From contig NZNC01000015.1 of the NCBI GenBank assembly GCA_002692965.1, positions 124,001-188,000 of the forward strand: DNA of 64,000 bases. The letters are read 5' to 3'. Shown in pieces: positions 1 to 63,375 of this stretch. The first letter of the stretch is position 1. The number at the start of each line of letters is the position of its first letter. A program made the translations under genes and the position numbers. The notes under the pieces are model-generated. The model searched no databases, had not been told where the DNA came from, and was given only the letters and a program-made list of their open reading frames with translations. This DNA is from Haliea sp. (GTDB lineage Bacteria; Pseudomonadota; Gammaproteobacteria; Pseudomonadales; Halieaceae).

Positions 1-193
1 GGTGGTCTTCCGCAGAGGCACGCCGGACCATGCCCTGATGATTGGACGCTCGGTCGACAACACGCGCTTCCTGGCCAAGACCGCAGAGGGCGACACCGAT
101 ACGCCACGGAAATTGCTGGAGGGTGAACCCCTCGGCCGACGGGTGAGCGTTACCCGGGCTCAGGAACAGTGCCTGTTCACGCTGGCGGAATGA
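1..193 (+). CDS. Thiolase-like acyltransferase, C-terminal fragment
   Basis: Only the last 63 codons are inside the window; the reading frame is open from base 2 and stops at 191-193. The fragment resembles the small OB-like domain found at the C-terminus of type-1 thiolase-like acetyl-CoA acetyltransferases: a strand with IGRSVDNTRFLAKT, a helix ending LLEGEPLGRR, and a final strand CLFTL. Such proteins act on beta-ketoacyl-CoA or related thioesters, but the catalytic half lies outside the window, so activity cannot be checked. Its 3' end overlaps the 3' end of the convergent epimerase gene by 17 bases. The domain identification is by family resemblance. Confidence 0.6.
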   Translation, partial: VVFRRGTPDHALMIGRSVDNTRFLAKTAEGDTDTPRKLLEGEPLGRRVSVTRAQEQCLFTLAE

Positions 194-1097
194 TCTCCGG
201 ATAACGCTCGCGGAGCACCGCCGATAGCCCCTCGCGCCAACCCAGCTGGCAGGGACCCACCAGCTCGATCCGGCGCCGGTTATCGGTCACCCGCGAGGGT
301 ATGGCAGATTCTTCTTCGCGAAAACGGACTTCCCGCCCCACCAGCTCGCCGAGATACTGGCACCAGCTGCGCACCTCCACAGCTTCATCACCACCCCAGT
401 TGACCACCGTCGCCGGCACGGATGCCGCACTCAGGAGCCCGGCAACCTGCCGGTTGATATCATCCTGATGAATACAGGTAAACCAGGCTTCTCCACCAGG
501 TGGCAGGGAAATGGCCTCGCCGCGCAGGATCGCATCCATGTGATAGGCGGGCATACCACCGTTGGCCGAATAGGAAACATTCATCCGCGCAATTGTCGTG
601 GGCAGAGCGTAAAGCCGGGCGCAGCTGCGGGCCACGGCTTCCTGTGCAATCTTGGATACGGCGTAGGTGGGTGAATAGGGCTGGTGTGAATCTCCGAGGG
701 GATCACTCTCGCAAAAGGCATGACGAGGATCGGATTGATTGTCGTATACCGCGCAGGTCGACATGACCAGGCAGGCCTTTGCCCGCCGACAATGCGCCAT
801 CAGCAGCGCGGTCCCCTCGGCATTGACCTGCAGCGCGTGATCATAGTCGGCGCCTCCCAACTGGAACACCGCGAAATGCAGCAAATAATCAAAATCGTCG
901 GGCAAGCCAGTGAAGTCGCCGCTGGCGAGGTCAAGCACAAAGGGGTGCATGCCTGCCTTCTCGCAGCGCTCCCGGGAACCCGGTGCCGTGAAACGTGCGA
1001 CCGCCCAGACCTCATTGTCCGCCGCCAGGTATTCACCCAGCGGAAAACCGATCTGGCCGGCGGCCCCGGTCAGCAGAATTTTCTGGTTCTTGAGCAT
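177..1097 (-). CDS. NAD-dependent epimerase/dehydratase (extended SDR)
   Basis: This 306-residue protein has the extended-SDR Rossmann motif GAAGQIG at residues 11-17 and an active-site YAVSK at 145-149 with a preceding MSTCAVY segment supplying the Ser/Thr. Such enzymes epimerise, dehydrate or reduce nucleotide sugars, or act on other hydroxylated substrates with NAD(P). It is the last gene of a minus-strand run with two classical SDRs (16 bases from the preceding one), so it probably serves the same catabolic route. A GAGG ribosome-binding site precedes the ATG. Substrate unknown. Confidence 0.85.
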   Translation of the reverse strand: MLKNQKILLTGAAGQIGFPLGEYLAADNEVWAVARFTAPGSRERCEKAGMHPFVLDLASGDFTGLPDDFDYLLHFAVFQLGGADYDHALQVNAEGTALLMAHCRRAKACLVMSTCAVYDNQSDPRHAFCESDPLGDSHQPYSPTYAVSKIAQEAVARSCARLYALPTTIARMNVSYSANGGMPAYHMDAILRGEAISLPPGGEAWFTCIHQDDINRQVAGLLSAASVPATVVNWGGDEAVEVRSWCQYLGELVGREVRFREEESAIPSRVTDNRRRIELVGPCQLGWREGLSAVLRERYPEIIPPA

Positions 1098-1113: not shown

Positions 1114-1884
1114 TCACGGCATCAGTGCGCCACCGTTGACGTTGTACACCTGGCCGTTGATCCAGCGCGCCTCCTCCGACAGCAGGAGACAAACCATGGC
1201 AGCGATATCCTCCACCCGCCCCAGGCGGGTACTCGGTGTATGCGCCTGGAAGCCATCCAGCAACTCCTGTGGCACCTGCCCGCTGGCCTGCATTTCCGGT
1301 GTATAAACAAAGCCCGGCGCCACACAGTTGGCGGTGATGCCCTCGCGCCCCCAGCGCGCTGCCACATGTCGCATGAGCGCATTCAGCCCGCTCTTTGCCG
1401 CCGCGTAGGCCGGCCGGGTGCTGTCGCCAGAATCCGCGGCTCCGGAGCTGGTATAGACGATCGCACCCTGCCCCCTGCTCAGCAGATGCGGCAGCGCTGC
1501 GCGGGTACACAGCAGGTGGCCGCGAAGGTTGACCTGAAGGGTACGATCAAACACCGCCAGATCCTCGGCCAGGGCATCGCTGTCCTCGAAAATCACCCGC
1601 AGGTCGGCGGCATTCACATGCACGCCGTCGAGGCCACCGAGTGCCGTCACGGCTTCAGAGAAAGCGCGGTTGACCACGTCCTCCTCGGCAATGTCGATGT
1701 AGACGGCATGAGCTTCGCCGCCGCTATCGCGGACTTCATCTGCCACGCTTTGCGCCGCCTCGAGATTAATGTCCGCCACGCAGACACGAGCACCCTCCGA
1801 GGCGAGCTGTTTCACAGTGGCTGCCCCGATTCCGCTACCCGAGCCGATCACCATGATGGCCTTGTCTTTCAGTCTGCCCTGCAT
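1114..1884 (-). CDS. SDR family oxidoreductase
   Basis: This is a 256-residue classical short-chain dehydrogenase. The cofactor loop GSGSGIG is at residues 14-20, the catalytic Ser is in the TSSG segment near 146, and YAAAK is at 160-164. An Asp after beta-2 (VADIN) favours NAD(H) over NADP(H). The usual NNAG motif is altered to VNAAD near residue 91, which is unusual but seen in divergent SDRs. An AGGAAAG ribosome-binding site precedes the ATG. It is the middle gene of a three-gene minus-strand run; the substrate is probably a secondary alcohol or ketone. Confidence 0.88.
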   Translation of the reverse strand: MQGRLKDKAIMVIGSGSGIGAATVKQLASEGARVCVADINLEAAQSVADEVRDSGGEAHAVYIDIAEEDVVNRAFSEAVTALGGLDGVHVNAADLRVIFEDSDALAEDLAVFDRTLQVNLRGHLLCTRAALPHLLSRGQGAIVYTSSGAADSGDSTRPAYAAAKSGLNALMRHVAARWGREGITANCVAPGFVYTPEMQASGQVPQELLDGFQAHTPSTRLGRVEDIAAMVCLLLSEEARWINGQVYNVNGGALMP

Positions 1885-28495: not shown

Positions 28496-30478
28496 TCACT
28501 CCTCGCCGACTGCCCTCGCGCGTGACTGTTCACCTGCCGGCGCCTGGTCCAGCAGGAAATGATCGGGCTTCGGTTCCCGGGTCATGTTCCAGTAATCCAC
28601 CAGGCGCCAGGGGCTGGACAGGTACAGGCGCCCCTTGCTGTTCTGGTAATAACTCTTGACCCGCGGGTGGCCCCAGATCATCTGCTTCAGCTTGGCATCC
28701 AGCTGGTCATTGTACGCATCGTGCGCCTCGCGGGTCACTTCCAGCGTGCTCGCCCCACGCTGATGCATGAGGTCCAGGCAGGCGAGAATGTAATGGATCT
28801 GGCTCTCCGCCAGGATATTCACCCCACCGCCGTGATTGGGCGCGCTGTTGGGACCGGAGCCGACAAACAGGTTGGGGAAGCCGGGCACCAGCAGACCGTA
28901 ATAGGCCCGGGGATCCTCCTCGCCCCAGAGGTCGCGGATGCTGACACCATCGCGGCCGGTCACTTCCACCGTGGAGAGCATCTTGGCGTGCTGGTAGCCG
29001 GTGGCGAAAATGATCACATCCAGTTCCACCAGGCGACCGTCCGCGGTGATGATGCCGTTTTCCACAATGCGCTCGATGCCATCGGTCTCCAGGCTCACAT
29101 TGTCACGCTTGAGCATGTCAAACCAGCCATTGTCCATGCAGAAGCGCTTGCCGCCGGGCGGGTAATCCGGCGTCACCTTCTCCTTCAGGTCCGGGCGACC
29201 CGCCAGTTTCTCGTCGATATAGCCCAGCAGGTACTGGCGGATCTGCTCATTGGTGGCGTTCACCGAGACCTCTGGCATCTGCCACTCGGGGTCGATCAGC
29301 ACGTTGTTGTACCAGTTGTCCGAGGCATTCCAGTAGGTCTGCAGGCGCCACCACTGGGCGTAGTGAGGAATCTCGCGCATGGCCCGGCAGACCGGCTCCG
29401 GCACCTTCTCGTTGAGGTTGGCGATGGGCATCACCCAGTGCTTCGAGCGCTGGAAAACGGTCAGGTGCGCGGCGATTTTCGCCATTTCCGGGGAGACCTG
29501 CATGGAGCTGGCGCCGGTGCCGATCACCGCCACGCGCTTGCCGGCCAGGTCAATACTGTCGTCCCAGCGTGCGGTATGCATCTTTTCGCCGCGAAAGCTC
29601 TCGTGCCCGGGGATATTGAAGGGCTTGGGGCGGGTACTGAAACCCACGGCTGTCATGACCGCGTTGTAGTGGCGCAGGGTTTCACTGCCATCCGCCAGGG
29701 AACGGGTGAGAACATCCCACAGGCCGGTTTTCTCGTTCCAGGTGCAGCTGACCACCTCGGTACTGAAAATCACCCGCTTGCGGATGCCAAACTTCTCCGC
29801 CGTATGCACCAGGTAGTCCTGATTCTCCTGGCCCCGGGAAAACCAGTGCTTCCAGTCACCGTTCAACTCGAAGGAGTAGGAGTAGTAATGGCTGGGCGTA
29901 TCCACCGCCAGGCCGGGATAGCGGGTGTGGAACCAGGTGCCGCCCACCTCGGGGTTGCGCTCGACAATGTCGTAGTCATAGCCGGCCTCGGCGAAGCGCA
30001 CGCCGGCATTGATGCCGGTCAGCCCCGCACCGATGATCAGAATACGGAAACCCTCGGGCGGCTGTCCGTAGGGTACCGGGTCCTGGCCGGGAATGTGGGT
30101 AAAACCCGACTGCTCCAGCACCAGCGGCACAAATTCGTCGGCAACCGGCTCACCCACGCAAACACTCATCATGCGCTGCAGGGTCTTCTCGTCATGTACG
30201 AGCGGACGCGGCGGCGGATCCTGGGTCAGCAGCGCCTGCAGCTTCTCCCGGAGGGCCTCGGCCAGCGCCTCGGGGACCGCGGCACCACCCGCCATCTGTG
30301 GGTGAATGTATGGTGCGTAGTGATCCAGTTCGGCGGTATCGCCGGACAGGTGCACGTAGACCATCAACAAAGTGGGTACATCCGCCCCGGCGAGCACTTC
30401 CCGCAGGCCCTCGTGGTCGCGGATGGGCAGTACCGACAAGTCGTTGGCGGTGGAACGCAATTGGGGAATCTCGGTCAT
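28496..30478 (-). CDS. Baeyer-Villiger-type flavin monooxygenase with N-terminal extension
   Basis: This 660-residue protein has an N-terminal extension of about 140 residues, a first Rossmann motif GAGLTG at 150-155, the Baeyer-Villiger fingerprint [12 protein letters not shown] at 295-306 (FxGxxxHxxxW-D) and an NADPH-binding GTGASS at 320-325. The extension and length match 4-hydroxyacetophenone monooxygenase-type enzymes. It would insert oxygen next to a ketone to give an ester or lactone, using FAD, NADPH and O2. The ATG at 30478 is used because the upstream in-frame start is TTG. Its closest relative in the window is at 58553-60484. Site B of the shared AT-rich element lies about 80 bases upstream. 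Confidence 0.9.
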
Positions 30479-40675: not shown

Positions 40676-41797
40676 TTACCCGGGAGCGGCGTGCCGCGCG
40701 CGCCAGCCCTGGGGCGTCTCCCCCGTCCAGTCGACAAAGGCCCGCCGAAAGGCGCGCACATCGCTGAAGCCCAGCTGCGCAGCGATGTCTCCCACCTTGG
40801 CATCGCCGTGTCGCAGCAGGGCCCGCGCCCGCTGCTCCCGCTGTTCCCGCTTGATCCCGACATAGGTCGTGCCCTCCTGCACCAGTCGCCGGTGAAAGGT
40901 CGCCGGGCTGGTATTGAAGAAGCGTGCAATCTGATCGAGGCTGGGCAGGCGCCTGTTGCGCACCAGCTGGGTCTGGATAATGCTCGCCACCGCGTCCCGG
41001 AAGCGCCATTGCCCGCCCGGCTCGAAGAGCTGATCGAAGGGCAGTACGGCCAGAACTTCCCGCAGATCGGCTGCATCGCGCACCACGGGTCGATCCAGCA
41101 AGGGCGCCGGGAAATCAAAACTGTTGTCCGGCGCACCGAAGGTGAGTGGCTGCAGGAAAAAGCCCTCCAGGACCTCCCGCTCCATCACCTGGTTGGCATA
41201 CACCGCATAGCCCTGGATTGGCAGATTGCTGCCGATCAGCCAGGCAAACAGTCGCCGGTAGAACGCCAGGCCAAAAAGATCCGTGAGCAGGGCACTGGGG
41301 CTGTCGCGCAAACGCCGCGTGGCCATGTGGAAACGCGCCCGGCCGCCGCTGACGGCCAGCGACAACTGAGCGCCGCGACCACCGAGCATGGCGCAGAAGC
41401 GCGCCGCGCGCTCGATGGCCTCGCGCAGGGTGCGACAGGTGATCACGCAGTAACAGAGCATGTCCACCTCCTCCTTGCTCATCGGCGGCAGCTCACCCTC
41501 CCGGTTGGCCCGCTCGGAGAGCGCCGTGATGCAGTGCTCGAGGATGCCCAGGGCCGCATCCAGCGTCGTGGCCCGGCCGTCGCCAAGCTCCGCCATGTCC
41601 CCGCCGCTGGCAACATATTCGTGCACCAGAGCGTCAACGAAAGCCCCGAGTCCCTCGGGCAGGCCGGCACAGTCGGCAGCCAGGCCCTCCCGCGCTTCGG
41701 TCGATGCTGGGCGTTGTCGTTCTTGCAAAAAAATGTCCCCCTGCTGCCGGCTTTGGTCCTCTCCTCGAGCCGCCGCCGCAGTATAGTCTGTGGGCAC
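40676..41797 (-). CDS. AraC-family regulator with N-terminal ligand-binding domain
   Basis: This protein (373 residues as drawn) ends in an AraC DNA-binding domain: first helix-turn-helix at SLDQIARFFNTSPATFHRRL and the second at VGDIAAQLGFSDVRAFRRAF. The rest resembles the arabinose-binding-like domain common in regulators of catabolic genes. The drawn start is GTG at 41797, leaving only 48 bases to the divergent DegT gene. A TTG at 41728 after GGGGGACA would leave 117 bases and remove a poorly conserved N-terminus, so the true start is uncertain. It probably controls the DegT gene and perhaps the TonB receptor. Confidence 0.85.
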   Translation of the reverse strand: MPTDYTAAAARGEDQSRQQGDIFLQERQRPASTEAREGLAADCAGLPEGLGAFVDALVHEYVASGGDMAELGDGRATTLDAALGILEHCITALSERANREGELPPMSKEEVDMLCYCVITCRTLREAIERAARFCAMLGGRGAQLSLAVSGGRARFHMATRRLRDSPSALLTDLFGLAFYRRLFAWLIGSNLPIQGYAVYANQVMEREVLEGFFLQPLTFGAPDNSFDFPAPLLDRPVVRDAADLREVLAVLPFDQLFEPGGQWRFRDAVASIIQTQLVRNRRLPSLDQIARFFNTSPATFHRRLVQEGTTYVGIKREQREQRARALLRHGDAKVGDIAAQLGFSDVRAFRRAFVDWTGETPQGWRARHAAPG

Positions 41798-41845: not shown

Positions 41846-43066
41846 ATGAAACTAGCCAAACGCGAGATCCGCTACGGCGGCGCCATGCTCGACCAGAAAG
41901 AAGTCGATGCCGTTGTCAATGTCATGCAGACCAGCATGGTGGTCGGCGAGAATGTCACCACCTTCGAGAAGCGCTGCGCCAATCTGCTGGGCAAGGACTA
42001 CGGCGTGATGGTCAACTCCGGCAGCTCCGCCCTGCTGCTGGCCATTCGCCTGCTGGACCTGCCCCCGGGTTCCGAGATCATCACCCCGACCCTGACCTTC
42101 GGCACCGACATCTCCAGCATCGTGATGAACGGTCATGTGCCGGTGCTGATCGACGTCGAACCCGACACCTACCAGATCAACATTGACCGTATCGAAGACA
42201 ACATCACCCCGAAGACCAAGGCCATGCTGGTGCCCTCCCTGGTCGGCGGCATGCCCGACTGGGACCGCCTGCGGGAAATCGCCGACAAGCACGGCCTGAA
42301 ACTGATCGAGGACAGCTGCGACACCCTCGGCGGCACCTACCGCGGCACGCCACCCGGCAAGCGCAGCGACATCACCGTCACCAGCTTCTCCATCTTCCAC
42401 ATCATCACCTGCCTGGGCAACGGCGGCCTGGTGGCGGTCAATGACCCCGCCCTGTGGGACCGCGCCCTGATGCTGCGCGCCTGGGGCCGCTCCTCGGAGA
42501 AGTACCTCTACGGCCCCCGCCAGCAGGACAGCGACGGCCGCTTCCTGGAAGACCTGGGTGACATCGAATACGACGGCATGTTCATCTTCGAGGAACTCGG
42601 CTACGGCTTCATTCCCAACGAGGCGGGCGCCGCCTTCGGCCACGAGCAGCTGAACAAGCTGGAAGAATTCACCCGCCTGCGCCAGGCCCGTTTCAGCCGT
42701 CACGATGACTACATGGACAGCCGCAGCGAGTACTTCATCAAGCCGCGGGTCTCCGACGATGTCTTCACCACCTGGATCTGCTACCCGGTGATGCTGCGCC
42801 CGGAACTGGGCTGGAGCCGCCGCAAGCTGCAGGAGCACCTGGAGGACGCCGGCATCTTCACCCGGGTAATTTTCTCCGGCCATGTGGCCCTGCAACCGAT
42901 GATGAAAGATGCCGAGTTCCGCCTCGACCCCGCCGGCTACCCGAACGCCGAGCAGGTCATGCGTCAAGGCCTGATGCTTCCCTGCCACCCGACCATGACC
43001 GAGGAGGATTGCCAGTACCTCTACCAGGTGCTGGACGAATTCATCGAGCAGCAGAAAGCGGGCTGA
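41846..43066 (+). CDS. DegT/DnrJ/EryC1-fold PLP protein with Lys-to-His change
   Basis: This 406-residue protein has the sugar aminotransferase/dehydratase fold: VNSGSSALLLAIRLLDL, LIEDSCDTLGG, and RAWGRSSEKYLYG. At the Schiff-base position the usual SFxxxK reads SFSIFH, with His185 in place of Lys, and the following GEGG is GNGG. The same Lys-to-His change defines the ColD/RfbH 3-dehydratases, which remove the C3 hydroxyl of a nucleotide ketosugar. The four cysteines for the RfbH iron-sulfur cluster are absent, so it is closer to ColD. A GAGGA site precedes the ATG. No lipopolysaccharide genes flank it, so its role here is unclear. Confidence 0.85.
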   Translation: MKLAKREIRYGGAMLDQKEVDAVVNVMQTSMVVGENVTTFEKRCANLLGKDYGVMVNSGSSALLLAIRLLDLPPGSEIITPTLTFGTDISSIVMNGHVPVLIDVEPDTYQINIDRIEDNITPKTKAMLVPSLVGGMPDWDRLREIADKHGLKLIEDSCDTLGGTYRGTPPGKRSDITVTSFSIFHIITCLGNGGLVAVNDPALWDRALMLRAWGRSSEKYLYGPRQQDSDGRFLEDLGDIEYDGMFIFEELGYGFIPNEAGAAFGHEQLNKLEEFTRLRQARFSRHDDYMDSRSEYFIKPRVSDDVFTTWICYPVMLRPELGWSRRKLQEHLEDAGIFTRVIFSGHVALQPMMKDAEFRLDPAGYPNAEQVMRQGLMLPCHPTMTEEDCQYLYQVLDEFIEQQKAG

Positions 43067-43169: not shown

Positions 43170-44963
43170 TCAGGCGCTCGTCAGCCGCGCCAGCAGATCA
43201 TCATCCAGGGCTGCGTAAGTGCCCCGCTCGCGGTCCAGCCCGTAGAGCGGATCGGCCACCTCCGTCGGGTCAAAGCCCTCGTTACGCAGACGCACCTTCT
43301 GCAACTTGAAATTGGCGGTCACCTCTGGCCTCGGCAGAATGCGCACAAACAGCGGCTGGGCGTAGGCCGGCAGGTTCTCCGTTGCGCAGCGGTAAAAGGC
43401 ATCCGGGTCGAAGTCGTGGCCCGGCTTCAGCTCCAGGGCCGCCATGCAGGCCCGCCCCTCGTGGCCCGGCACCTTCACGCCGTAGATATTGGTGGTTTCC
43501 GTGTCCGGGTAGACCGAGAGCTGCTGGGCCACTTCGGTGGTGGAAACATTCTCGCCCTTCCAGCGGAAGGTATCGCCGATGCGGTCGACAAAATAGAAGT
43601 AGCCGTCCTCATCGAAGCGGAACAGGTCCCCCGAGCGCCACCAGGCATCCCCCGCCTCGAACACGTCCCGGCGAATCTTGGCCTCGGTATCCGCCTGGGT
43701 GGTGTAGCCCTCGAAGGGCGCGACCCACTCGCCGTTGCCGCGACGGATCTGACCGTGCAGCTCCCCCACTTCCCCCGGCCCGCAGAGGATGTAATGCCCC
43801 TGCTCGTCGCGCATCAGCTCGTCGGCACCCTGATCGTAGCGCAGCAGGCGAACATGGCTCTGCTCCGGGAAGGGAATGCGGCCACAGGCCCCCGGCTTCT
43901 GGTCGAAGTTGGTCATGTTGGCGTTGGACTCCGTGGCGCCCCAGCCCTCCATGACCAGCACCTGCTCGCCAAAACGCTGCTTGAAGCGCTGCCAGACGTC
44001 GATTCCGATCCCCGAGCCCATGATCATGCGCAGGCTGTGGTTTTTTTCCTCGGGCACGGGCGGTACGTTGACCAGGTAGCGCACCACTTCGCCCACGTAC
44101 TGAAACACCGTCACCCCCCACTGCTGCACATCCGGCCAGAAGCGCGAGACGCTGAAACGTCGCCGCACTACCACCGCGCCGCCACACTGCAGGGCGGTGC
44201 TGTACAGCGACATCAGCGCGGCGCCGTGGAACAGCGGCAGGGCGCAGTAGAAGACATCCTCCTGACCCAGCTCGACCACACTCATCCAGCCCGCGCCCAC
44301 CGAGAGAAAACGGCCGTGGCTGATCAGGGCTGCCTTGGGCAGGCCGGTGGTCCCCGAGGTAAAGATATAGAAACACGGCCGCATGTTGTCGATGCCGGCG
44401 CGCAGCGCCTTGAAACCGTCCGCCGGCGCCGCGGCGGCGGGCAGCTGCTGCAGATCCCGGGCCGCGGGGTGACTGACCGCGTCCGGCGTGGCCGCATCGG
44501 CAATGCGGACGATCGAAAGTGCTGCGGGAAGATCATCGGTACTGCAGAGTTGCGCCATGCACTCATCGCCGATGAACAGCAGGCCCGCGCCGGTGACCCT
44601 CAGGGCATGACTCAGGGCAGTGCCCACCGCGGAGGTGTTGATCAGGCCAACAATCACGCCAATCCGCGCCAGGCCAAGCCAGGCGTAGAAAAACTCGGGA
44701 CGGTTCTCGATCATTACCGCCGCCACATCCCCCGCCCCGAGGCCGAGCCCCAGGGCGACACGGGCGTAGTGGGCGGAGCGCTGCTCAAGTTGCGCCCAGG
44801 TGACCACCTCCCCCTCGTAGACCAGTGCCCTGCGCTCGCCCAGGCGCGCCGCCTGCTCCTCGAAGCAGTCGGGTACGAGGTAGTCGCGACGCATCATCAT
44901 GCCGCCGGCGGCGGCGCGGTGACGGTCGATAATACGCTGGGTTTCTTCGCGGCTGACGGTCAC
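43170..44963 (-). CDS. Long-chain acyl-CoA synthetase (FATP/FadD6-like)
   Basis: This 597-residue AMP-forming synthetase has the P-loop YIFTSGTTGLPKAALISH near residue 205, the adenine region EGWGATESNANMTNFDQKPG, and the C-terminal hinge RSGDLFRFDEDGYFYFVDR and GDTFRWKGENVSTTEV. The layout resembles very-long-chain/FATP-type synthetases that accept bulky acids, including sterol acids. It starts at GTG with AGGAGA 6 bases upstream. It diverges from the enoyl-CoA hydratase gene across a 200-base spacer holding site E. Confidence 0.9.
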   Translation of the reverse strand: MTVSREETQRIIDRHRAAAGGMMMRRDYLVPDCFEEQAARLGERRALVYEGEVVTWAQLEQRSAHYARVALGLGLGAGDVAAVMIENRPEFFYAWLGLARIGVIVGLINTSAVGTALSHALRVTGAGLLFIGDECMAQLCSTDDLPAALSIVRIADAATPDAVSHPAARDLQQLPAAAAPADGFKALRAGIDNMRPCFYIFTSGTTGLPKAALISHGRFLSVGAGWMSVVELGQEDVFYCALPLFHGAALMSLYSTALQCGGAVVVRRRFSVSRFWPDVQQWGVTVFQYVGEVVRYLVNVPPVPEEKNHSLRMIMGSGIGIDVWQRFKQRFGEQVLVMEGWGATESNANMTNFDQKPGACGRIPFPEQSHVRLLRYDQGADELMRDEQGHYILCGPGEVGELHGQIRRGNGEWVAPFEGYTTQADTEAKIRRDVFEAGDAWWRSGDLFRFDEDGYFYFVDRIGDTFRWKGENVSTTEVAQQLSVYPDTETTNIYGVKVPGHEGRACMAALELKPGHDFDPDAFYRCATENLPAYAQPLFVRILPRPEVTANFKLQKVRLRNEGFDPTEVADPLYGLDRERGTYAALDDDLLARLTSA

Positions 44964-47358: not shown

Positions 47359-47649
47359 ATGAGAAAGCAGCACGTTGTAGACCTGCTGAGCCGCAGCAAA
47401 GAGGAACTGCGTAGCCGCTTCGGGGTAACCCGCCTGGCGTTGTTCGGCTCGACCGCCAGGGACACGGCGAATCGCGAAAGCGATATCGATATCCTGGTGG
47501 CCTTCGACGGACCCGCAACCTCCAAACGTTATTTTGGTGTGCAATTTTATCTGGAGGACTTGCTTGGTCGTCCGGTCGACCTGGTCACAGAAAAAGCTCT
47601 GCGCCCGGAACTTCGTCCCTATATCGAGCAAGACCGCATCAATGTCTGA
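47359..47649 (+). CDS. mntA: MntA-type nucleotidyltransferase antitoxin
   Basis: This 96-residue protein has the minimal nucleotidyltransferase motif: LFGSTARD at residues 28-35 and the paired aspartates ESDIDILV (Asp42 and Asp44). In the MntA/HepT family this protein AMPylates a tyrosine of the HEPN toxin and neutralises it. It overlaps the HepT start by 8 bases, consistent with coupled expression. It has lower GC and different codon use from its neighbours by eye, as expected for a horizontally moved module. Confidence 0.9.
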   Translation: MRKQHVVDLLSRSKEELRSRFGVTRLALFGSTARDTANRESDIDILVAFDGPATSKRYFGVQFYLEDLLGRPVDLVTEKALRPELRPYIEQDRINV

Positions 47650-48007
47650 AACTAGCCGGCGTGAGTGGCGCTTCTATCTGGATGACATGATCTCCTTTAC
47701 CGAGAAGGCTCTCACTTACACTGAAGGCTTTGACCAGACAACTTTCATAAACAGTGGACTGACCTACGACGCCACTCTGCGTAATCTGGAATTGATTGGC
47801 GAAGCCGCCGGTCATATTCCGGTGGCGGTTCGTGAACAACTCCCGGAAATCCCCTGGCGGATGATCGTCGCTACTCGCAATAGGCTCATCCATGGTTACC
47901 TCGGCATAGATAACGATACTCTCTGGAGTATCATCCGCGATGATCTACCCGAGCTATTGCCCATGCTCAAGACAGCAAGAAACTCACCAAACTTGTTTCG
48001 GAAGTGA
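47642..48007 (+). CDS. hepT: HepT-type HEPN RNase toxin
   Basis: This 121-residue protein (formerly DUF86) has the HEPN RNase motif RNRLIHGY at residues 79-86, which is R-x4-H-x-Y; the Tyr86 position is the site AMPylated by MntA in studied pairs. It would cleave RNA, for example tRNA, when freed from the antitoxin. The ATG at 47642 overlaps the mntA stop by 8 bases. Both partners look intact. Confidence 0.9.
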   Translation: MSETSRREWRFYLDDMISFTEKALTYTEGFDQTTFINSGLTYDATLRNLELIGEAAGHIPVAVREQLPEIPWRMIVATRNRLIHGYLGIDNDTLWSIIRDDLPELLPMLKTARNSPNLFRK

Positions 48008-54159: not shown

Positions 54160-55683
54160 CTACACGGCCACCTTCAAGGGCTCGAAGCGGTACTCGCTGA
54201 AATCCGGATTGAGCATGTCTTCGCGGTACTGCTGCGGCAGCCAGGGATAGATATTCGGCGTCCCCGTTGCATCCAGGTACCAGCTGTCGCAGCCGCCGGT
54301 CGCCCAGGTCGACTTGCCGATATCCCGGGACATAGCTTGGTTGTAAGCCTCGTAGGCTTCCTGCTTCGGCGCGACCACAGCCACCTGGTCGCGCTTCATC
54401 TTGTCCAGGATCGCGATGACACAGTCAATCTGATGCTCGGAAATGTCGATCAGCGAGGTATTGCCAAATACGCCGGTTGGGCCCTCCAGCATGAAGAAGT
54501 TCGGAAAACCCGGGAAGGTCAGTGCGCGATGGGCACGGGGCGCCTCCCGCCAGAACGCGGATAATTCCAGGCCATTCTCACCAGTGACCCGGGTCGGCAG
54601 AATGAAATCCGACACGTGGAAGCCAGTCGCCAGCAGCAGAATATCCAGCTCATGCACTTTGCCATCGCCTGTCTTCACGCCCTCCGGGACGACTGCATCG
54701 ATGCGCTCGGTGACCAGCTCGACATTGTCCTGCTGCAGCGCGGGATAGTAGTCGGAGCACATAATCATGCGCTTGCAGGTGGCCTTGTAGTCGGGGGTTA
54801 CCCGCGCGCGCAGTTCGGGGTCGGGAATTTGCTCCTTCAGGAAGGCCAGGCAGGCATCCTGCACCCGTTTCTGCTGCTTTTCATCGCCCAGGGTGGCCCG
54901 GGCAAAGGTATGCTCCATCAGCCAGCGCATGAAGTTGCGAATCGCCAATTGCAGGCCCGGCACCCTGCGCAACAGGAATCGCCAGGTGGCGGAATATTGC
55001 TTCTGGGGCATTGACGTGATCCAGTGTGGTGTACGCTGGAAGACATCCAGGTGCCCCACGTCTCCGGCAATCGCCCCGACAATCTGGCAGGCGGTTGAGC
55101 CCGTACCGATAATGCCAACCCGCTTGCCTTTCAGGGGGACGTCGTCACGCCAGCGCGCCGAGTGCCATTGCTCCCCGGCAAAGCTGTCCAGCCCCGGGAT
55201 ATCCGGATAGGCCGGATTGACCAGGACCCCGGTCGCTGCAATTACCAGGTCAAAGCGCTCCACGTCACCCTGCTCCGTGGTCAGCTGCCACTGCGGCCCC
55301 AGGTAAGTCAGGTCGGTGACTCCGCAGTTGAAGCGAATATCCTGCTTCGCGCCGTATTTGTCGGCCACCTGGTTCATGTAGGCCAGGATCTCCGGACCGT
55401 AGGAGAAGCGGTGCTTCCAGTCCGGGTTCAGGGCAAAGGAGTAGGAGTAAAAGTGGGAGGGCACATCGCAGGACAGGCCGGGGTAGTGATTGTCCCGCCA
55501 GGTGCCGCCAATTTCCCCGGCCTTCTCGAAACAGGTCAGGTCCGTGTAGCCCTGCTGGCGCAATTTGATCAGGGCACCGATGCCGGAAAAGCCTGCGCCG
55601 ATAATGGCAATGCGGGGCTGGCGACCCTCCGTCGTCCAGGCCCCCGTGGGCTGAAGGTCCTTCCCTGAAACACTCATGTTCAT
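54160..55683 (-). CDS. Baeyer-Villiger-type flavin monooxygenase
   Basis: This 507-residue protein has GAGFSG at residues 29-34, the fingerprint FAGEQWHSARWR at 168-179 (FxGxxxHxxxW) and the NADPH-binding GTGSTA that follows. It lacks the N-terminal extension of the other two monooxygenases here and resembles cyclohexanone- or steroid-type enzymes in length. The ATG at 55683 has GGGAG upstream; the longer frame starts with non-homologous sequence. It diverges from an AraC-family gene that may regulate it. Confidence 0.9.
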   Translation of the reverse strand: MNMSVSGKDLQPTGAWTTEGRQPRIAIIGAGFSGIGALIKLRQQGYTDLTCFEKAGEIGGTWRDNHYPGLSCDVPSHFYSYSFALNPDWKHRFSYGPEILAYMNQVADKYGAKQDIRFNCGVTDLTYLGPQWQLTTEQGDVERFDLVIAATGVLVNPAYPDIPGLDSFAGEQWHSARWRDDVPLKGKRVGIIGTGSTACQIVGAIAGDVGHLDVFQRTPHWITSMPQKQYSATWRFLLRRVPGLQLAIRNFMRWLMEHTFARATLGDEKQQKRVQDACLAFLKEQIPDPELRARVTPDYKATCKRMIMCSDYYPALQQDNVELVTERIDAVVPEGVKTGDGKVHELDILLLATGFHVSDFILPTRVTGENGLELSAFWREAPRAHRALTFPGFPNFFMLEGPTGVFGNTSLIDISEHQIDCVIAILDKMKRDQVAVVAPKQEAYEAYNQAMSRDIGKSTWATGGCDSWYLDATGTPNIYPWLPQQYREDMLNPDFSEYRFEPLKVAV

Positions 55684-55877
55684 GGCATGTTCTCCCAGAC
55701 AGTTCTTTTCTTGCACGGGCAGGCGGGGCACACCGGTGCGGGATACCGGGAACTCTACTCACTGCTGCGCATTTTGCCATGTGGCGAGAGGACAACAACT
55801 TTTGAATATCGGCCATCATCCGCATACTATCCCGAATCTGATCGGTATTTTCATGCATCTACTGGGTATAAGGGGCC
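55684..55877. promoter_or_regulatory. Divergent promoter region, monooxygenase/AraC
   Basis: This 194-base spacer separates the divergent monooxygenase and AraC genes. The shared AT-rich element is not present. I see no strong palindrome. An AAGGGG site precedes the AraC start. Confidence 0.3.
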
Positions 55878-56960: not shown

Positions 56961-57815
56961 TCATTCGCCGGCCCGACAAAGACGCTCCACCTTGTCGTGG
57001 AAAAATCGGGCGCTCCACAGGGACAGGCTGCGCTGCTCCGGCTGTGAAAGAAACGGCTCGACATCGGCAGCCGCCTGAGGCCAGTCTATCCGGTCGATCA
57101 CTTCCTTCAGCGCGATCTCCAGCCAAGCTGCGTCAACCTCTACACCCTGGCCCTGCCAGGGTCCGTATTGCTGCAGGGCAGCTGACAGCAACGGCAGGTT
57201 CGGGCGCACCGATTGACGCACATACCAGGCCAGGTCAAACCAGTCGCGCCCTTTCACATAGGGCCGGCACAGCAGAGCATGAATCTTCAGGGAGAAGTTG
57301 CTGGGCAGATCCTGGCAGCAGATTTCAAAGTCCAGGGGGAAATCCAGATAGCGGTAATCAAAGTCTGAACCCGGAGGCGGATTGCTGTCGATTTCCAGCT
57401 TGACCTTGAGCTTTCGCCCATCGCGGGCATCAACAAAGCCAAGATTCAGCTGATGACCAATGGAGTTGTTCTTGAGCATGGCCTGACGCACTGCGCGGTC
57501 TGCCCTTCCGCGGTCAAGCAGCTCTGCCTCTACGCCGAACTCCGCCAGCACCTCCTCGAGTGCGCCGAAATACGTCGGCCATGCAAAGTCGGGGTCCGGA
57601 ACCTTCAGTATGAAATCCAGGTCTTCCGAAAAACGCGGCAGATCGTGGAGAATGCGAAGACTTGTGCCGCCCTGGAAGGCAGCGATGCTGAAAAAGTCCG
57701 CTCGCCAAAGCCCATAAAGGACCAGTTCCTGAAGAATCTCCTTGAGCGCCTGCTCTTCACCGCGGGCGTCCGTACAGCGGTAGGAAGCCAGACGTTGCTG
57801 TAACAGTGCAATCAT
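56961..57815 (-). CDS. abiEii: AbiEii-type nucleotidyltransferase toxin
   Basis: This 284-residue protein has the AbiEii/AbiGii nucleotidyltransferase block: GGTSLR at residues 49-54 and RFSEDLDF at 61-68, with the paired acidic residues Asp65 and Asp67. Members act as toxins in type IV toxin-antitoxin systems, and some give abortive phage infection. Its ATG overlaps the antitoxin stop by 4 bases. Length and motifs look intact. Confidence 0.88.
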   Translation of the reverse strand: MIALLQQRLASYRCTDARGEEQALKEILQELVLYGLWRADFFSIAAFQGGTSLRILHDLPRFSEDLDFILKVPDPDFAWPTYFGALEEVLAEFGVEAELLDRGRADRAVRQAMLKNNSIGHQLNLGFVDARDGRKLKVKLEIDSNPPPGSDFDYRYLDFPLDFEICCQDLPSNFSLKIHALLCRPYVKGRDWFDLAWYVRQSVRPNLPLLSAALQQYGPWQGQGVEVDAAWLEIALKEVIDRIDWPQAAADVEPFLSQPEQRSLSLWSARFFHDKVERLCRAGE

Positions 57816-58462
57816 TCGCCAATCTCCCCGCTTAGACCATCAATGGCCCGCTGCATGCGGCGATGTTTGTAGACCGGCCGCAGGCGTTCCAGCGCAAGCC
57901 TGTCGATCGACCGCAGCATTGCCTCCTCGATACGCAGGTCTTCAGTCAGCTGGCCGATATTCGTCCACTCTCGCTTGCGCAGACAGAAGTCATCCAGCAA
58001 GGCCCTCAGCGGGCTAGCCACCAGCGCTGGAGAGCCCGCAAGCACCACGCGCTCTACCCCCTCGAGAAAATAACCGTGCCTGATCGCCAGAGGATAGAAG
58101 CGGAACTCCCCCATTTCCGCGCTGGAGACCTCGCTGCGGCGCACATGTGGAGTAATGCACTGGGTAACCGGCACGGACTCGGGAACCCAGCCATGGTATG
58201 AGAGCGCGCTGAACAGCGAGACATAGGCACCGGGCGAGAGGCTCTCGGCGACCACGAAGGGGTGTGGCCAGGAACCCGAGACATCAGCTGCGACGAGGTA
58301 CAGCCCCCGTCTCAGGCGCACCAGTTCCCCGCTACGCAGGGCTCGGTTGACCAGGTTATAGCGTCGCTGCGGCGTACCCTCCACCAAACGGGCCAGCTGG
58401 TGCTCGTTGAGCACCCTGCCACGCAAGCCAGCGCTGCTGATGATGCGGGTTAACGTTTCCAT
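57812..58462 (-). CDS. abiEi: AbiEi-type antitoxin and autoregulator
   Basis: This 216-residue protein has a winged-helix N-terminus (LNEHQLARLVEG, then NLVNRALRSGELVRLRRGLY) and the AbiEi C-terminal half with AYVSLFSALSYHGWVPES. AbiEi antitoxins counter AbiEii and repress the operon by binding inverted repeats in the promoter. An inverted repeat lies 12 bases upstream of the start. No Shine-Dalgarno sequence is visible before the ATG. Confidence 0.87.
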   Translation of the reverse strand: METLTRIISSAGLRGRVLNEHQLARLVEGTPQRRYNLVNRALRSGELVRLRRGLYLVAADVSGSWPHPFVVAESLSPGAYVSLFSALSYHGWVPESVPVTQCITPHVRRSEVSSAEMGEFRFYPLAIRHGYFLEGVERVVLAGSPALVASPLRALLDDFCLRKREWTNIGQLTEDLRIEEAMLRSIDRLALERLRPVYKHRRMQRAIDGLSGEIGE

Positions 58463-58552: not shown

Positions 58553-60484
58553 TTACTTCAGCACAAGCGCCTCCGGGTCCGGCTCCCGCACCATCGACCA
58601 GTAATCCGCCAGCCGGAAGGGGCAGGAGACCCAGTTGCGGCCCTTGCTGTTGAGGTAATAGCTGCTGGCCTTCGGGTGCAGCCACACCATGTTCTGCATC
58701 TGGCTATCCACCCGTTCGTTCCACTCCCGGTAGGCGGCCTCCGTCGGCTCCAGTGCTTTTGCACCCCGCGCCACCAGCAGATCAAGGGCCTCGATGATGT
58801 AGTTGACCTGGGACTCGATCACCATATTGACCCCGGCGGCGTGGTTGGGCGCACTGTTGGGGCCCTGGGTCATGAAGAAGTTCGGGTAGCCGGGCACCAT
58901 GATACCCAGGTAGGAGCGCGCCTCGTCCCGCCCCCACACCGCGCCGGCTTCCACCCCGCCGCGGCCAAAGACCTGCATGCTGCCCAGGGCCGGCGCCAGC
59001 TCGAAGCCCGTGGCCAGGGCAATCACATCCACTTCGATGAGCCGGCCATCCCGGGTCAGGATGCCGTTTTCGACAATGCGCTCAATACCGGCCGTTTCCA
59101 GGCTGACATTGGGCTGCTTGAGGGTATCCAGCCAGCCACCGTCCGCATCCAGCACGATACGCTTGCCAAAGATCGGGTAGTCGGGCTGCATCTTTTCCAG
59201 CAGATCCGGACGATCGGCGAATTTCCGCTGCATGTAGGCCAGGGCGTACTGGCGGGCACCGTCATTCTGGGCGGAAATCGACAGGCTCTGGTCCTCCCAC
59301 GTCGGGTCTCGCAGCACATTGCCGTACAAACCGTCGCCGGTAAACCAGTACACACGGAAGCGGAACCACTCCATGTAGTGAGGGATGTGGCGCAGTGCGA
59401 ATTTCACACCCTCGGTCACCCCGAGGTGAATCTCCGGGTTGTTCATCACCCAGTGGCGGGAGCGCTGGAATACCGTCAGCTGAGAGGCCTCGGGCGCTAT
59501 CGCCACCGCCAGCTGCGCGCCACTGGCACCGGTGCCGATAATGGCCACACGCTTGCCCTTGAGGTCCACTTCCGGGTCCCAGCCAGCCGTGTGCATGGCG
59601 ACGCCCTGGAAATCCTTCAGCCCGGGGATATCCGGCATGCGCCAGCGGTTGAGAATGCCGTGACCGTTGATCACCGCCTGGAAACTTTCCTCGCTCACCT
59701 CGCCCTGGCTCTCCAGGCTGACGCGCCACAGGCTGGCGTGCTCGTCCCAGCGCAGCGCCGTCACCCGGGTATTGAATTGCACTCGCTCGCGCACGCCGTA
59801 CTGGTCTGCCACGTTCAGCAGATAGCGCTCGATCTCGGGACCCTTGGGGTGATAGTGACTCCAGTCCGGGCTCTGTGCGAAGGAATAGGCATAGAAGTGG
59901 CTCGGGGTATCGAGGCCGACACCGGGGTAACGGTTCTCCCACCAGGTTCCGCCGAGCTCGCTGTTCTTTTCCGCGATCACATAATTGTAGCCAGCCTCAC
60001 CCAGCTTCACCCCCGCAGCGATCCCGCTCATGCCACCGCCGATCACCAGCACCCGGAAGTCCGCCGGCGGCTGCGGGCGCCCGGGCTGCTCCTTGCGAGG
60101 CACCGGTCGCTCGAAGCCCATCTGGTCATAGAGCACGGGCACCAGCTCCGGGTCCACGGCCTCCCCCACACTGACACTCATCATGTGCCGCACAAAGTCG
60201 GTACTCAGGGGCGGCTCGTTGATCGGCTCCTCCGCCGTGAGCAGGGCGAACAGGCGCTGGCGCAGGTCCGTGGCCAGGTCCTCGGGCACTTCGCTCACCT
60301 CCGTGGTGTAGATGGACTGCAGATGGGACGCAAACGCATCCAGCATGGCCTCGTCACCGCTAAGCTGCACGTAGACCATCAGGAGCGAAGGCAGATTGGC
60401 CTCCTGCAGGGCCTGCTGAAGGCCCTGGTGGTCGGTAATTGGCAGGCCTTGCACCCGCCCGGGGTCCTGCATGCGCTGAGTCAT
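58553..60484 (-). CDS. Baeyer-Villiger-type flavin monooxygenase with N-terminal extension
   Basis: This 643-residue protein is paralogous to the one at 28496-30478: it has the same N-terminal extension (PITDHQGLQQ, then LPSLLMVYVQLSGDEAMLD), GGGMSG at about 149-154, and the fingerprint FQGVAMHTAGWD with the following GTGASG. It is of the 4-hydroxyacetophenone monooxygenase type by length. The ATG at 60484 has GAGAGG upstream. It diverges from an uncharacterised gene across a 201-base spacer with site G and a perfect FNR box. Confidence 0.9.
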   Translation of the reverse strand: MTQRMQDPGRVQGLPITDHQGLQQALQEANLPSLLMVYVQLSGDEAMLDAFASHLQSIYTTEVSEVPEDLATDLRQRLFALLTAEEPINEPPLSTDFVRHMMSVSVGEAVDPELVPVLYDQMGFERPVPRKEQPGRPQPPADFRVLVIGGGMSGIAAGVKLGEAGYNYVIAEKNSELGGTWWENRYPGVGLDTPSHFYAYSFAQSPDWSHYHPKGPEIERYLLNVADQYGVRERVQFNTRVTALRWDEHASLWRVSLESQGEVSEESFQAVINGHGILNRWRMPDIPGLKDFQGVAMHTAGWDPEVDLKGKRVAIIGTGASGAQLAVAIAPEASQLTVFQRSRHWVMNNPEIHLGVTEGVKFALRHIPHYMEWFRFRVYWFTGDGLYGNVLRDPTWEDQSLSISAQNDGARQYALAYMQRKFADRPDLLEKMQPDYPIFGKRIVLDADGGWLDTLKQPNVSLETAGIERIVENGILTRDGRLIEVDVIALATGFELAPALGSMQVFGRGGVEAGAVWGRDEARSYLGIMVPGYPNFFMTQGPNSAPNHAAGVNMVIESQVNYIIEALDLLVARGAKALEPTEAAYREWNERVDSQMQNMVWLHPKASSYYLNSKGRNWVSCPFRLADYWSMVREPDPEALVLK

Positions 60485-60514
60485 CACGGCGCCTCTCACG
60501 AAGAATGAATTTGC

Positions 60515-61815: not shown

Positions 61816-63375
61816 ATGCACGCTGACAGTCTGCGCCAGCAGTCCCTGTACGACACCTTGCGCCGTACCGCGGCGCGACATCCCGACAAGCTGGCCATCC
61901 GGCAGCACGGTGAGAACTGGACCTACCGGGAGTTCAACGACCTCTGTCTGAACCTCGCCGGCGGGCTCGCCGCCCAGGGCGTCGAGCCCGGTGACAGGGT
62001 GGCCATTCTCTCGCGCAACTCAAATGCCTTCGCGGCCCTGCGCTACGCCATCGCTGCCCGCGGTGCGGTGCTGGTACCGGTGAATTTCATGCTCAACGCC
62101 GAGGAGGCCGCGTACATCATCAACCACAGCGGCGCAAAGCTGCTGTTCGTGGGTGACACCGAGGCGGACAAGGCGCTGGCCGCGGCGCGCGAGTGCCCGT
62201 CGGTGGAGAAGTGCTACAGTTTGGCCCTCGGCAGCGCCCCACCCGCCGGCTTCGAGGCGCTGGATGCCCTGGCCGCCGGGCCGGCCCTGACCCAGCGACC
62301 CAGTATCGACAACACTACCCCGGCGCAGATCATCTACACCAGCGGCACCGAGTCCGCGCCGAAGGGCGCTGTGCTCAGCCACGCCGCCGTGCTGTGGCAG
62401 TATGGCAGTATCCTGGCTGACGCCGAAGTGGCCGGCGACGATGTGCTGCTGCACGCCCTGCCCCTTTTCCACTGTGCCCAGCTGGACTGTTTCCTGGGTC
62501 CATCGATTCACGTCGGCGCCAGCAATATCATCACCGCCGACAATCACCCGGACAATCTGCTGAAGCTGCTGGAGGGCGAAGGGGTCACCTCCTTCTTTGC
62601 GCCCCCGACGGTGTGGATCTCGCTCTTGCGGCATCCGGGCTTCGACACTGCCGACCTGTCCGCCCTGCGCAAGGGTTATTACGGCGCTTCCATCATGCCG
62701 GTGGAGATCCTGCGGGAAATCCAGCGGCGCCTGCCTGAACTGCGCCTGTGGAACCTCTACGGTCAGACGGAGATCGCCCCCACGGCAACCATCCTGAAAC
62801 CCGAGGACCAGTTGCGCAAGGCCGGCTCCGCGGGCAGGCCCGTGCTGCATGTGGAAACCCGTGTGGTCAATGACGCCGGCGAAGACGTGGCACCCGGCGA
62901 GATCGGTGAAGTGGTTCACCGCTCACCGCAGCTGCTGACCGAGTACTTCAGGAATCCGGAGAAAACGGCCGAGGCCTTTGCCGGCGGCTGGTTCCACAGT
63001 GGCGACCTGGCGACTGTCGACGAAGAGGGCTACCTGACCATCGTCGACCGCAAGAAAGACATCATCAAGACCGGCGGTGAGAACGTCTCCGGGCGCGAAG
63101 TCGAGGAAGCCATCTACCAGCTGGACTGGGTGGCAGAGGTTGCGGTCATCGGCCTGCCCCACGATCGCTGGGTGGAGGCCGTCACTGCCGTGGTGGTGCC
63201 GAAACCCGACAGCAGCCCTGATGAGGCCGCGGTCATTGCCTTCTGTCACGAACGGCTGGCAGCCTTCAAAGTGCCGAAACGGGTTGTGTTTGCGAGCGAT
63301 CTGCCGCGCAACCCTTCTGGCAAGATTCTGAAACGGGAGTTGCGCCTGGCACACAGCGCGCTTTACCAAAGCTAG
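61816..63375 (+). CDS. Acyl-CoA synthetase (AMP-forming)
   Basis: This 519-residue enzyme has the ATP P-loop IIYTSGTESAPKGAVLSH near residue 172, the region LYGQTEIAPTATIL, the hinge GDLATVDEEGYLTIVDRKKD and the C-terminal Lys in LPRNPSGKILKRELR. The Glu-Ser in the P-loop (TESAPKG) replaces the usual Thr-Gly. It resembles medium- or long-chain FadD-type ligases that activate a carboxylic acid with ATP and CoA. It follows the uncharacterised gene by 47 bases on the same strand. Confidence 0.92.
   Translation: MHADSLRQQSLYDTLRRTAARHPDKLAIRQHGENWTYREFNDLCLNLAGGLAAQGVEPGDRVAILSRNSNAFAALRYAIAARGAVLVPVNFMLNAEEAAYIINHSGAKLLFVGDTEADKALAAARECPSVEKCYSLALGSAPPAGFEALDALAAGPALTQRPSIDNTTPAQIIYTSGTESAPKGAVLSHAAVLWQYGSILADAEVAGDDVLLHALPLFHCAQLDCFLGPSIHVGASNIITADNHPDNLLKLLEGEGVTSFFAPPTVWISLLRHPGFDTADLSALRKGYYGASIMPVEILREIQRRLPELRLWNLYGQTEIAPTATILKPEDQLRKAGSAGRPVLHVETRVVNDAGEDVAPGEIGEVVHRSPQLLTEYFRNPEKTAEAFAGGWFHSGDLATVDEEGYLTIVDRKKDIIKTGGENVSGREVEEAIYQLDWVAEVAVIGLPHDRWVEAVTAVVVPKPDSSPDEAAVIAFCHERLAAFKVPKRVVFASDLPRNPSGKILKRELRLAHSALYQS

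Follow-up and report, generated by a model that had tools for sequence, protein, structure and literature searches.

A histidine-type, iron-sulfur-free branch of the DegT fold with a possible role in the deoxygenation of hydroxy-ketones during catabolism

A 406-residue protein encoded in the window (the whole stretch of 64,000 nucleotides of Haliea sp. DNA that was analysed) carries a histidine in place of the catalytic lysine of the DegT fold and very probably belongs to the His-type dehydratase branch of that fold. Judged from its sequence, it is neither RfbH nor ColD, and it falls in a separate His-type branch that is free of Fe-S cysteines. The reading that we favour, at roughly even confidence, is that of a PMP-dependent, ColD-like dehydratase whose activity has been redirected to the deoxygenation of a hydroxy-ketone in the catabolism of lipids or alicyclic compounds.

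41846..43066, plus strand: gene for the His-type DegT-fold protein, 406 aa, with His185 in the lysine position, a GNGG motif, S182, K219 and G254, and none of the Fe-S cysteines

The open reading frame is intact and its translation contains SFSIFHIITCLGNGG. The protein matches PF01041 (DegT/DnrJ/EryC1/StrS) in Pfam over residues 16-394 (2.1e-77, 261 bits versus a cut-off of 19.8), and a PF01041 search of its own genome returned it as the one full-length match and sole strong member, next to five partial matches of 27-32 bits that formally exceed the cut-off. RfbH is the top NCBIfam model, at 262.5 bits against a cut-off of 423, with PseC second at 198 bits. The AF2 model (pLDDT 87) has E1 as its best PDB match in Foldseek (TM 0.88), and its structural Z scores were 49.7 with E1, 48.2 with 7b0d, 48.1 with ColD and 48.0 with perosamine synthase. 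Raw identity to the same four enzymes is 33% (E1), 32% (7b0d), 28% (ColD) and 31% (perosamine synthase); raw identity and structural Z alone cannot separate a dehydratase from an aminotransferase. Comparison with four orthologs gave dS values of 0.50-0.88 and dN values of 0.04-0.14. Since dN lies well below dS and the residues described below are fixed in 28/28 clade members, a sequencing error and a decaying gene were both ruled out.

When the protein is aligned with E1, ColD and two aminotransferases of the lysine type, His185 shares the column of the Schiff-base lysine with E1 His220 and ColD His188, and the register is fixed by mutant PDB entries, E1 H220K (3bb8) having K at this column and ColD H188N (3b8x) having N. 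An earlier, sequence-only reading had proposed the Lys-to-His exchange at residue 185, a GNGG in place of GEGG and the loss of the RfbH cysteine cluster, and all three hold throughout the clade. H185 and N192 (the N of GNGG) are invariant in 28/28 rows, as are D156, D159, S180, S60 and F85, no row has a lysine at the usual Schiff-base column, and the loop, which has four Cys in every one of three E1/RfbH rows, is free of Cys in all 28. These rows include the window protein, to which the other members are 56-92% identical; they derive from a residue table of 31 rows that held three duplicate copies, and L014, which is cut by a contig end, was omitted from the residue counts and the tree. Several entries are one and the same contig (L001/L022/L032, L002/L067/L077, L003/L068/L078, L004/L023/L033, L009/L024/L034 and L012/L042/L050). 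Others are near-identical (L084-L086, L039/L083 and L009/L011), and the clade counts are therefore not independent events.

Passages of PMC8987622 single out the Lys-to-His exchange as what chiefly distinguishes NDP-sugar 3-dehydratases from aminotransferases. They describe a dehydratase cycle in which a PMP ketimine forms and the histidine abstracts a proton with expulsion of the C3 hydroxyl, followed by Fe-S reduction in E1 and SpnQ, or by hydrolysis with glutamate recharging in ColD. The only enzymes named in these passages are the Fe-S enzymes E1 and SpnQ and the GDP-type ColD, all of which act on nucleotide-linked sugars (PMC8987622).

The tree of 49 rows, rooted at its midpoint, unites the 28 catabolic-type rows in one branch (support 100/99). 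The plasmid-borne Rhodococcus member and the Embleya member attach to it first (100/98), followed by L057 (93/81) and then by a clade of 12 (94/95). The Fe-S RfbH/E1 rows (100/99) and the lysine rows (100/98) stand outside this His-type, Fe-S-free branch, and the gene sits apart from the two lysine aminotransferases compared. Long branches were flagged for ColD, L057, L066 and the outgroups, and ColD appears as a long branch outside the clade whose placement is unsure. An ordinary lysine aminotransferase was rejected by the motif and the tree, and an RfbH ortholog by the missing cysteines, the score under the family cut-off and the absent RfbF/RfbG partners. Relatives of the protein receive the name 'aminotransferase' by default, which is a trap for annotation. 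One genome (G015) has two copies of the catabolic-type enzyme, L037 on C15 and L038 on C18, in different neighbourhoods.

The sister clade of 12 (L041, L051-L056 and L060-L064) is likewise of the His type, is linked to RfbF/RfbG and lacks the Fe-S cysteines in 12/12. Homologs of RfbF and RfbG are present in all 12 of its loci; they are annotated beside the sister-clade gene in Roseibium, Palleronia and Leisingera and exceed the NCBIfam cut-off in L041 and L051, and the CDP-glucose pair is carried by 7/7 sister-clade genomes. Its members are possibly Fe-S-free, ColD-like CDP-sugar 3-dehydratases. L057 (34% identity) is without RfbF/RfbG and belongs to no group; it is the sole miss if the count is taken as 12/13.

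Beyond the histidine, further active-site positions set the catabolic clade apart. Ser182 is fixed in 28/28 rows at a position that is Tyr in E1/RfbH, ColD, L057 and 12/12 CDP-branch rows, the two actinobacterial members having S and A. Gly254, also fixed in 28/28, replaces an Asn that is found in E1/RfbH, ColD, L057, the actinobacterial members and 11/12 CDP-branch rows (one has Gln, and 7b0d has a gap). Gly135 shows the same constancy (28/28), its column being Asn in E1/RfbH, ColD, L057, the CDP-branch rows and the actinobacterial members. The Asn at the position of Gly254 is presumably the ArnB-type phosphate-side Asn, and Asp194/Tyr217 of E1 have reportedly been the subject of mutagenesis. 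The fixed Ser182 and Gly254 suggest, at the level of the alignment, a remodelled active site, and the change from Asn to Gly254 could alter cofactor binding. The sequence-only reading had gone on to call the protein a ColD/RfbH-type 3-dehydratase. The dehydratase part of that assignment agrees with the marker value of the His exchange in passages of PMC8987622; the assignment to these known types in the strict sense is not borne out, given a score of 262 bits against 423, a branch of its own and the additional fixed changes in the active site.

The absence of polysaccharide genes nearby, which had also been claimed from the sequence, is borne out within the range covered: seven sugar-cluster queries gave no match in the 64-kb window at 1e-5, and no NDP-sugar or glycosyltransferase gene was recognised among the 43 scanned of 53 called window genes. 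The neighbours that matter here are the following.

40676..41797, minus strand: divergent AraC-type regulator (PF12625 and HTH_18); homologs of at least 45% stand beside the enzyme in 6/30 other loci
1114..1884, minus strand: short-chain dehydrogenase, here 40 kb away; homologs of at least 55% lie near the enzyme in 5/30 other loci and immediately precede it in L002 and L003
61816..63375, plus strand: fatty acyl-CoA synthetase (NF006182 over cut-off), here 19 kb away; homologs of at least 60% lie near the enzyme in 7/30 other loci
43170..44963, minus strand: long-chain acyl-CoA synthetase (NF006134 over cut-off), the next gene; linkage not conserved (1/30 loci, at 27%)
28496-30478, 54160-55731 and 58553-60499, minus strand: three FMO/BVMO-like genes in the same window
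177-1097, minus strand: Epimerase-fold extended SDR (PF01370, weak GDP_Man_Dehyd match), 41 kb from the enzyme gene
56961-58462, minus strand: AbiEii-type nucleotidyltransferase (PF08843), with an overlapping neighbour that has no Pfam match

Only the AraC gene, the SDR at 1114-1884 and the acyl-CoA synthetase at 61816-63375 recur near the enzyme elsewhere, and each was found in 0/20 control windows, which were round-number positions picked in eight genomes and not a true random draw. The closer neighbours in the window also include an enoyl-CoA hydratase, a beta-lactamase-fold protein and amidohydrolases, and farther out there are several SDRs, acyl-CoA dehydrogenase domains, a CoA-transferase and TonB receptors. 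By Pfam the window also encodes a DUF1214 protein and a sulfotransferase, neither of which entered the comparison of loci. The three FMO/BVMO-like genes are suggestive of the breakdown of cyclic ketones. None of the other window genes scanned (43 in all) encodes an Epimerase-fold protein. The AbiEii-type gene and its overlapping neighbour form a candidate type IV toxin-antitoxin pair; separately, two short overlapping ORFs at 47359-48007 (plus strand) resemble a MntA/HepT-type pair.

Upstream of the enzyme gene lies a conserved element.

41734..41750, plus strand: candidate AraC operator, a conserved element (TGTCCCCCTGCTGCCGG) that precedes the start codon of the enzyme gene by 112 bases

Among 14 orthologs examined, seven (the window, L001, L004, L005, L006, L008 and L009) have the element, TGTCCCCCTGCTGCC, at a distance of 107-121 bases 5' of the start codon. 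Upstream stretches with three or fewer mismatches at -107 to -121 in fact number 9/14, and L002 and L003 were omitted, the match there being inside the upstream SDR gene. L010 has four mismatches, at -113, and no match at that position was found in L007, L011 (only 90 bases upstream), L012 or L013. As a control, 6/500 random 400-base stretches of the window reached three or fewer mismatches, two of them with none, as the site itself would give. In the organism's own genome there are seven matches at this threshold compared with four for a reversed-pattern control, and we claim no regulon. Because the element at 41734-41750 lies inside the long AraC ORF, the GTG at 41797 is probably not the real start of the regulator, which would lie farther downstream. 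Here the enzyme gene stands alone, probably under the control of an AraC regulator of its own.

Loci from other genomes carry more direct associations. RfbF, RfbG and the five other sugar-cluster queries were found in 0/30 catabolic-type loci, several of which are only 4-9 kb long; this set excludes the window and consists of 28 loci of the branch, the partial L014 included, plus those of Embleya and Rhodococcus. Nearby genes are mostly dehydrogenases, acyl-CoA synthetases, P450s or monooxygenases. L006 has the DegT gene, an aldo-keto reductase and a GMC oxidoreductase joined by 4-base overlaps and followed by a gluconate 2-dehydrogenase subunit 3-like gene, an arrangement that L005 resembles, and in L036 the DegT gene and two SDR genes overlap. 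An SDR lies 30-37 bases upstream of the enzyme gene in L002, L003 and the Embleya locus L058, an acyl-CoA synthetase lies 4 bases downstream in L037, and a Gfo/Idh/MocA oxidoreductase follows at 49 bases in L013. P450 and GMC genes stand downstream in L009-L011, with a glyoxalase-fold gene in between in L010 and L011. The Embleya locus also encodes a BVMO-type enzyme (48% to the window gene at 28496) and an acyl-CoA synthetase (51% to that at 61816). Less fitting contexts occur in L012 (queF and guaB/guaA homologs downstream), L038 (adjoining DUF1552/DUF1592-type genes), L040 (an adjoining CitMHS transporter) and the Rhodococcus locus (inositol-type genes 8-10 kb off). Gene calls came from a home-made caller in GC-rich loci and from other gene calls in AT-rich loci.

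SDR homologs were present in 7/9 enzyme loci versus 1/20 control windows of the same genomes (p 1.7e-4, uncorrected, for one of nine classes examined); the SDR queries were taken from the window and L036, and the counts are unchanged without L036. Acyl-CoA ligases showed no significant enrichment (4/9 versus 3/20, p 0.11). A shift from sugar to catabolite is favoured because RfbF/RfbG occur in 0/30 of these loci versus 12/12 in the sister CDP branch, and we consider it fairly probable that the substrate is not a nucleotide sugar.

That the enzyme is still a nucleotide-sugar 3-dehydratase, which converts RmlB-made dTDP-4-keto-6-deoxyglucose into a 3,6-dideoxysugar for surface glycans and whose neighbourhood is coincidental, strikes us as rather unlikely. 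Its nearest sister branch is indeed the CDP-sugar branch, and the own genome encodes an RmlB that passes the cut-off, about 216 kb from the gene on the same contig, which also carries an RmlD-like stretch. CDP-glucose 4,6-dehydratase and the cytidylyltransferase are absent from this genome at 1e-30, and GDP-mannose 4,6-dehydratase (gmd) is absent at 1e-60. Among 20 catabolic-clade genomes, RmlB is present in 19, a gmd match in 10 (nine over cut-off) and the CDP pair in three (G526, G433 and G434), where it lies on another contig than the enzyme; in G015 a weak dehydratase match falls short of the cut-off. A gmd-like gene beside the CDP-glucose pair (G433:C11:61714-62513) is split over two frames with in-frame TGA and TAG and looks broken. 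Because RmlB is present, a dTDP-sugar could serve in most genomes. Against this, RmlB, gmd and the CDP pair are all absent from G218, a genome of 1.7 Mb (95% complete) with a 67% ortholog, the seven sugar-cluster queries have no match in any of the 30 loci, some of them short, and the gene here is stand-alone and AraC-linked; a dTDP-sugar is unlikely as the general substrate of the clade. The choice offered by the sequence-only reading, a deoxysugar made for export or dehydration of a catabolite, is thereby narrowed: the context of the 30 further loci favours the catabolite, and RmlB keeps a dTDP-sugar in play.

An aminotransferase or other PLP enzyme, in which the missing lysine is made up for by K219 or by an exchange of free PLP/PMP that needs no internal aldimine, and an amino group is passed to a ketone, appears improbable. 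K219 is the one clade-specific lysine. It is present in 27/28 clade rows, at a position where E1 has Cys and the CDP branch has Leu or Ile, and the loss of the Tyr at position 182 might point the same way. However, residue 219 is Pro in L013 and A and P in the two actinobacterial members, and the model of the loop is poor, with a mean pLDDT of 44-54 for blocks of residues 211-250. In the passages of PMC8987622 used here, SpnQ shows aminotransferase activity in the absence of its reductase, whereas aminotransfer was not observed for ColD and E1. A non-catalytic ligand-binding or regulatory protein that partners the AraC neighbour would suit a gene that stands alone, diverges from AraC and has a conserved element upstream, as well as the 28/28 replacement of the phosphate-side Asn by Gly254, but is very hard to reconcile with the invariant catalytic His and other cofactor residues, an AraC gene adjoining in only 6/30 other loci at 45% or more, and the tight gene pairs with oxidoreductases elsewhere.

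For a ColD-like dehydratase turned to catabolism, we propose the following route. A partner dehydrogenase (an SDR, an aldo-keto reductase or a GMC oxidoreductase, depending on the organism) would oxidise an alcohol to a ketone adjoining a hydroxyl, a pairing that by analogy would mirror RfbG making the ketone for E1. A ketimine would then form between this ketone and enzyme-bound PMP, His185, as the counterpart of E1 His220 and ColD His188, would deprotonate PMP at C4', and the adjacent hydroxyl would be expelled. As the clade has no Fe-S cluster, the ColD-type hydrolytic, glutamate-recharged route is expected: the intermediate would hydrolyse to a deoxy-ketone and ammonia, and PMP would be restored by transamination (with glutamate in ColD). 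The deoxy-ketone may finally enter ring opening and beta-oxidation. It is tempting to extend this to the whole clade, which, in a proposal that we hold with somewhat less than even confidence, has left nucleotide-sugar biosynthesis and reductively deoxygenates hydroxy-ketones in lipid, terpenoid or steroid breakdown, under AraC control of its own and with a cofactor site remodelled at S182, G254 and perhaps K219.

The distribution of the enzyme is patchy, as for an accessory pathway. With the own genome included in every count, it was found in 18/140 genomes of the family (at 1e-90), 10/58 relatives (at 1e-50, one of them CDP-branch), 9/369 genomes of the class (at 1e-75, six of them CDP-branch) and 1/398 of the phylum (at 1e-90). 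If the proposal is right, PMP-based deoxygenation is transferable from nucleotide-linked sugars to other hydroxy-ketones, and a chemistry that we found described only for sugar biosynthesis in the open-access literature has a catabolic use. It would be a new route of hydroxyl removal in terpenoid, steroid or lipid breakdown, and the enzyme a possible biocatalyst that needs neither an iron-sulfur cluster nor a nucleotide handle. The open-access literature, which misses most subscription papers, yielded no published description of the catabolic-type clade.

Compared with known systems, the protein shares with RfbH/E1 (CDP-6-deoxy-L-threo-D-glycero-4-hexulose-3-dehydrase) the fold, the His at the lysine column, D159 as the counterpart of the E1 Asp and the best NCBIfam model; it differs in its 33% identity, the lack of Fe-S cysteines, S182 for Tyr, G254 for Asn, the absence of RfbF/RfbG partners and a score under the family cut-off. 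ColD (GDP-4-keto-6-deoxymannose 3-dehydratase) likewise combines His at the lysine column with the absence of an Fe-S cluster, whereas the window protein is only 28% identical to it, lies on another branch, has D159 for Glu and F85 for Trp, and comes from a genome without gmd. The lysine DegT aminotransferases (perosamine synthase and 7b0d) have the same fold at about 31-32% identity, but the window protein has His for their catalytic lysine and lies on a separate side of the tree. The Cys-free, RfbF/RfbG-linked clade of 12 (Roseibium, Palleronia, Leisingera, Sinorhizobium and others) shares the His, the GNGG and the absence of cysteines; at 38-44% identity it stands on the sister side of the tree and, unlike the window protein, has CDP-sugar clusters in 12/12, Tyr at 182 and, in 11/12, Asn at 254.
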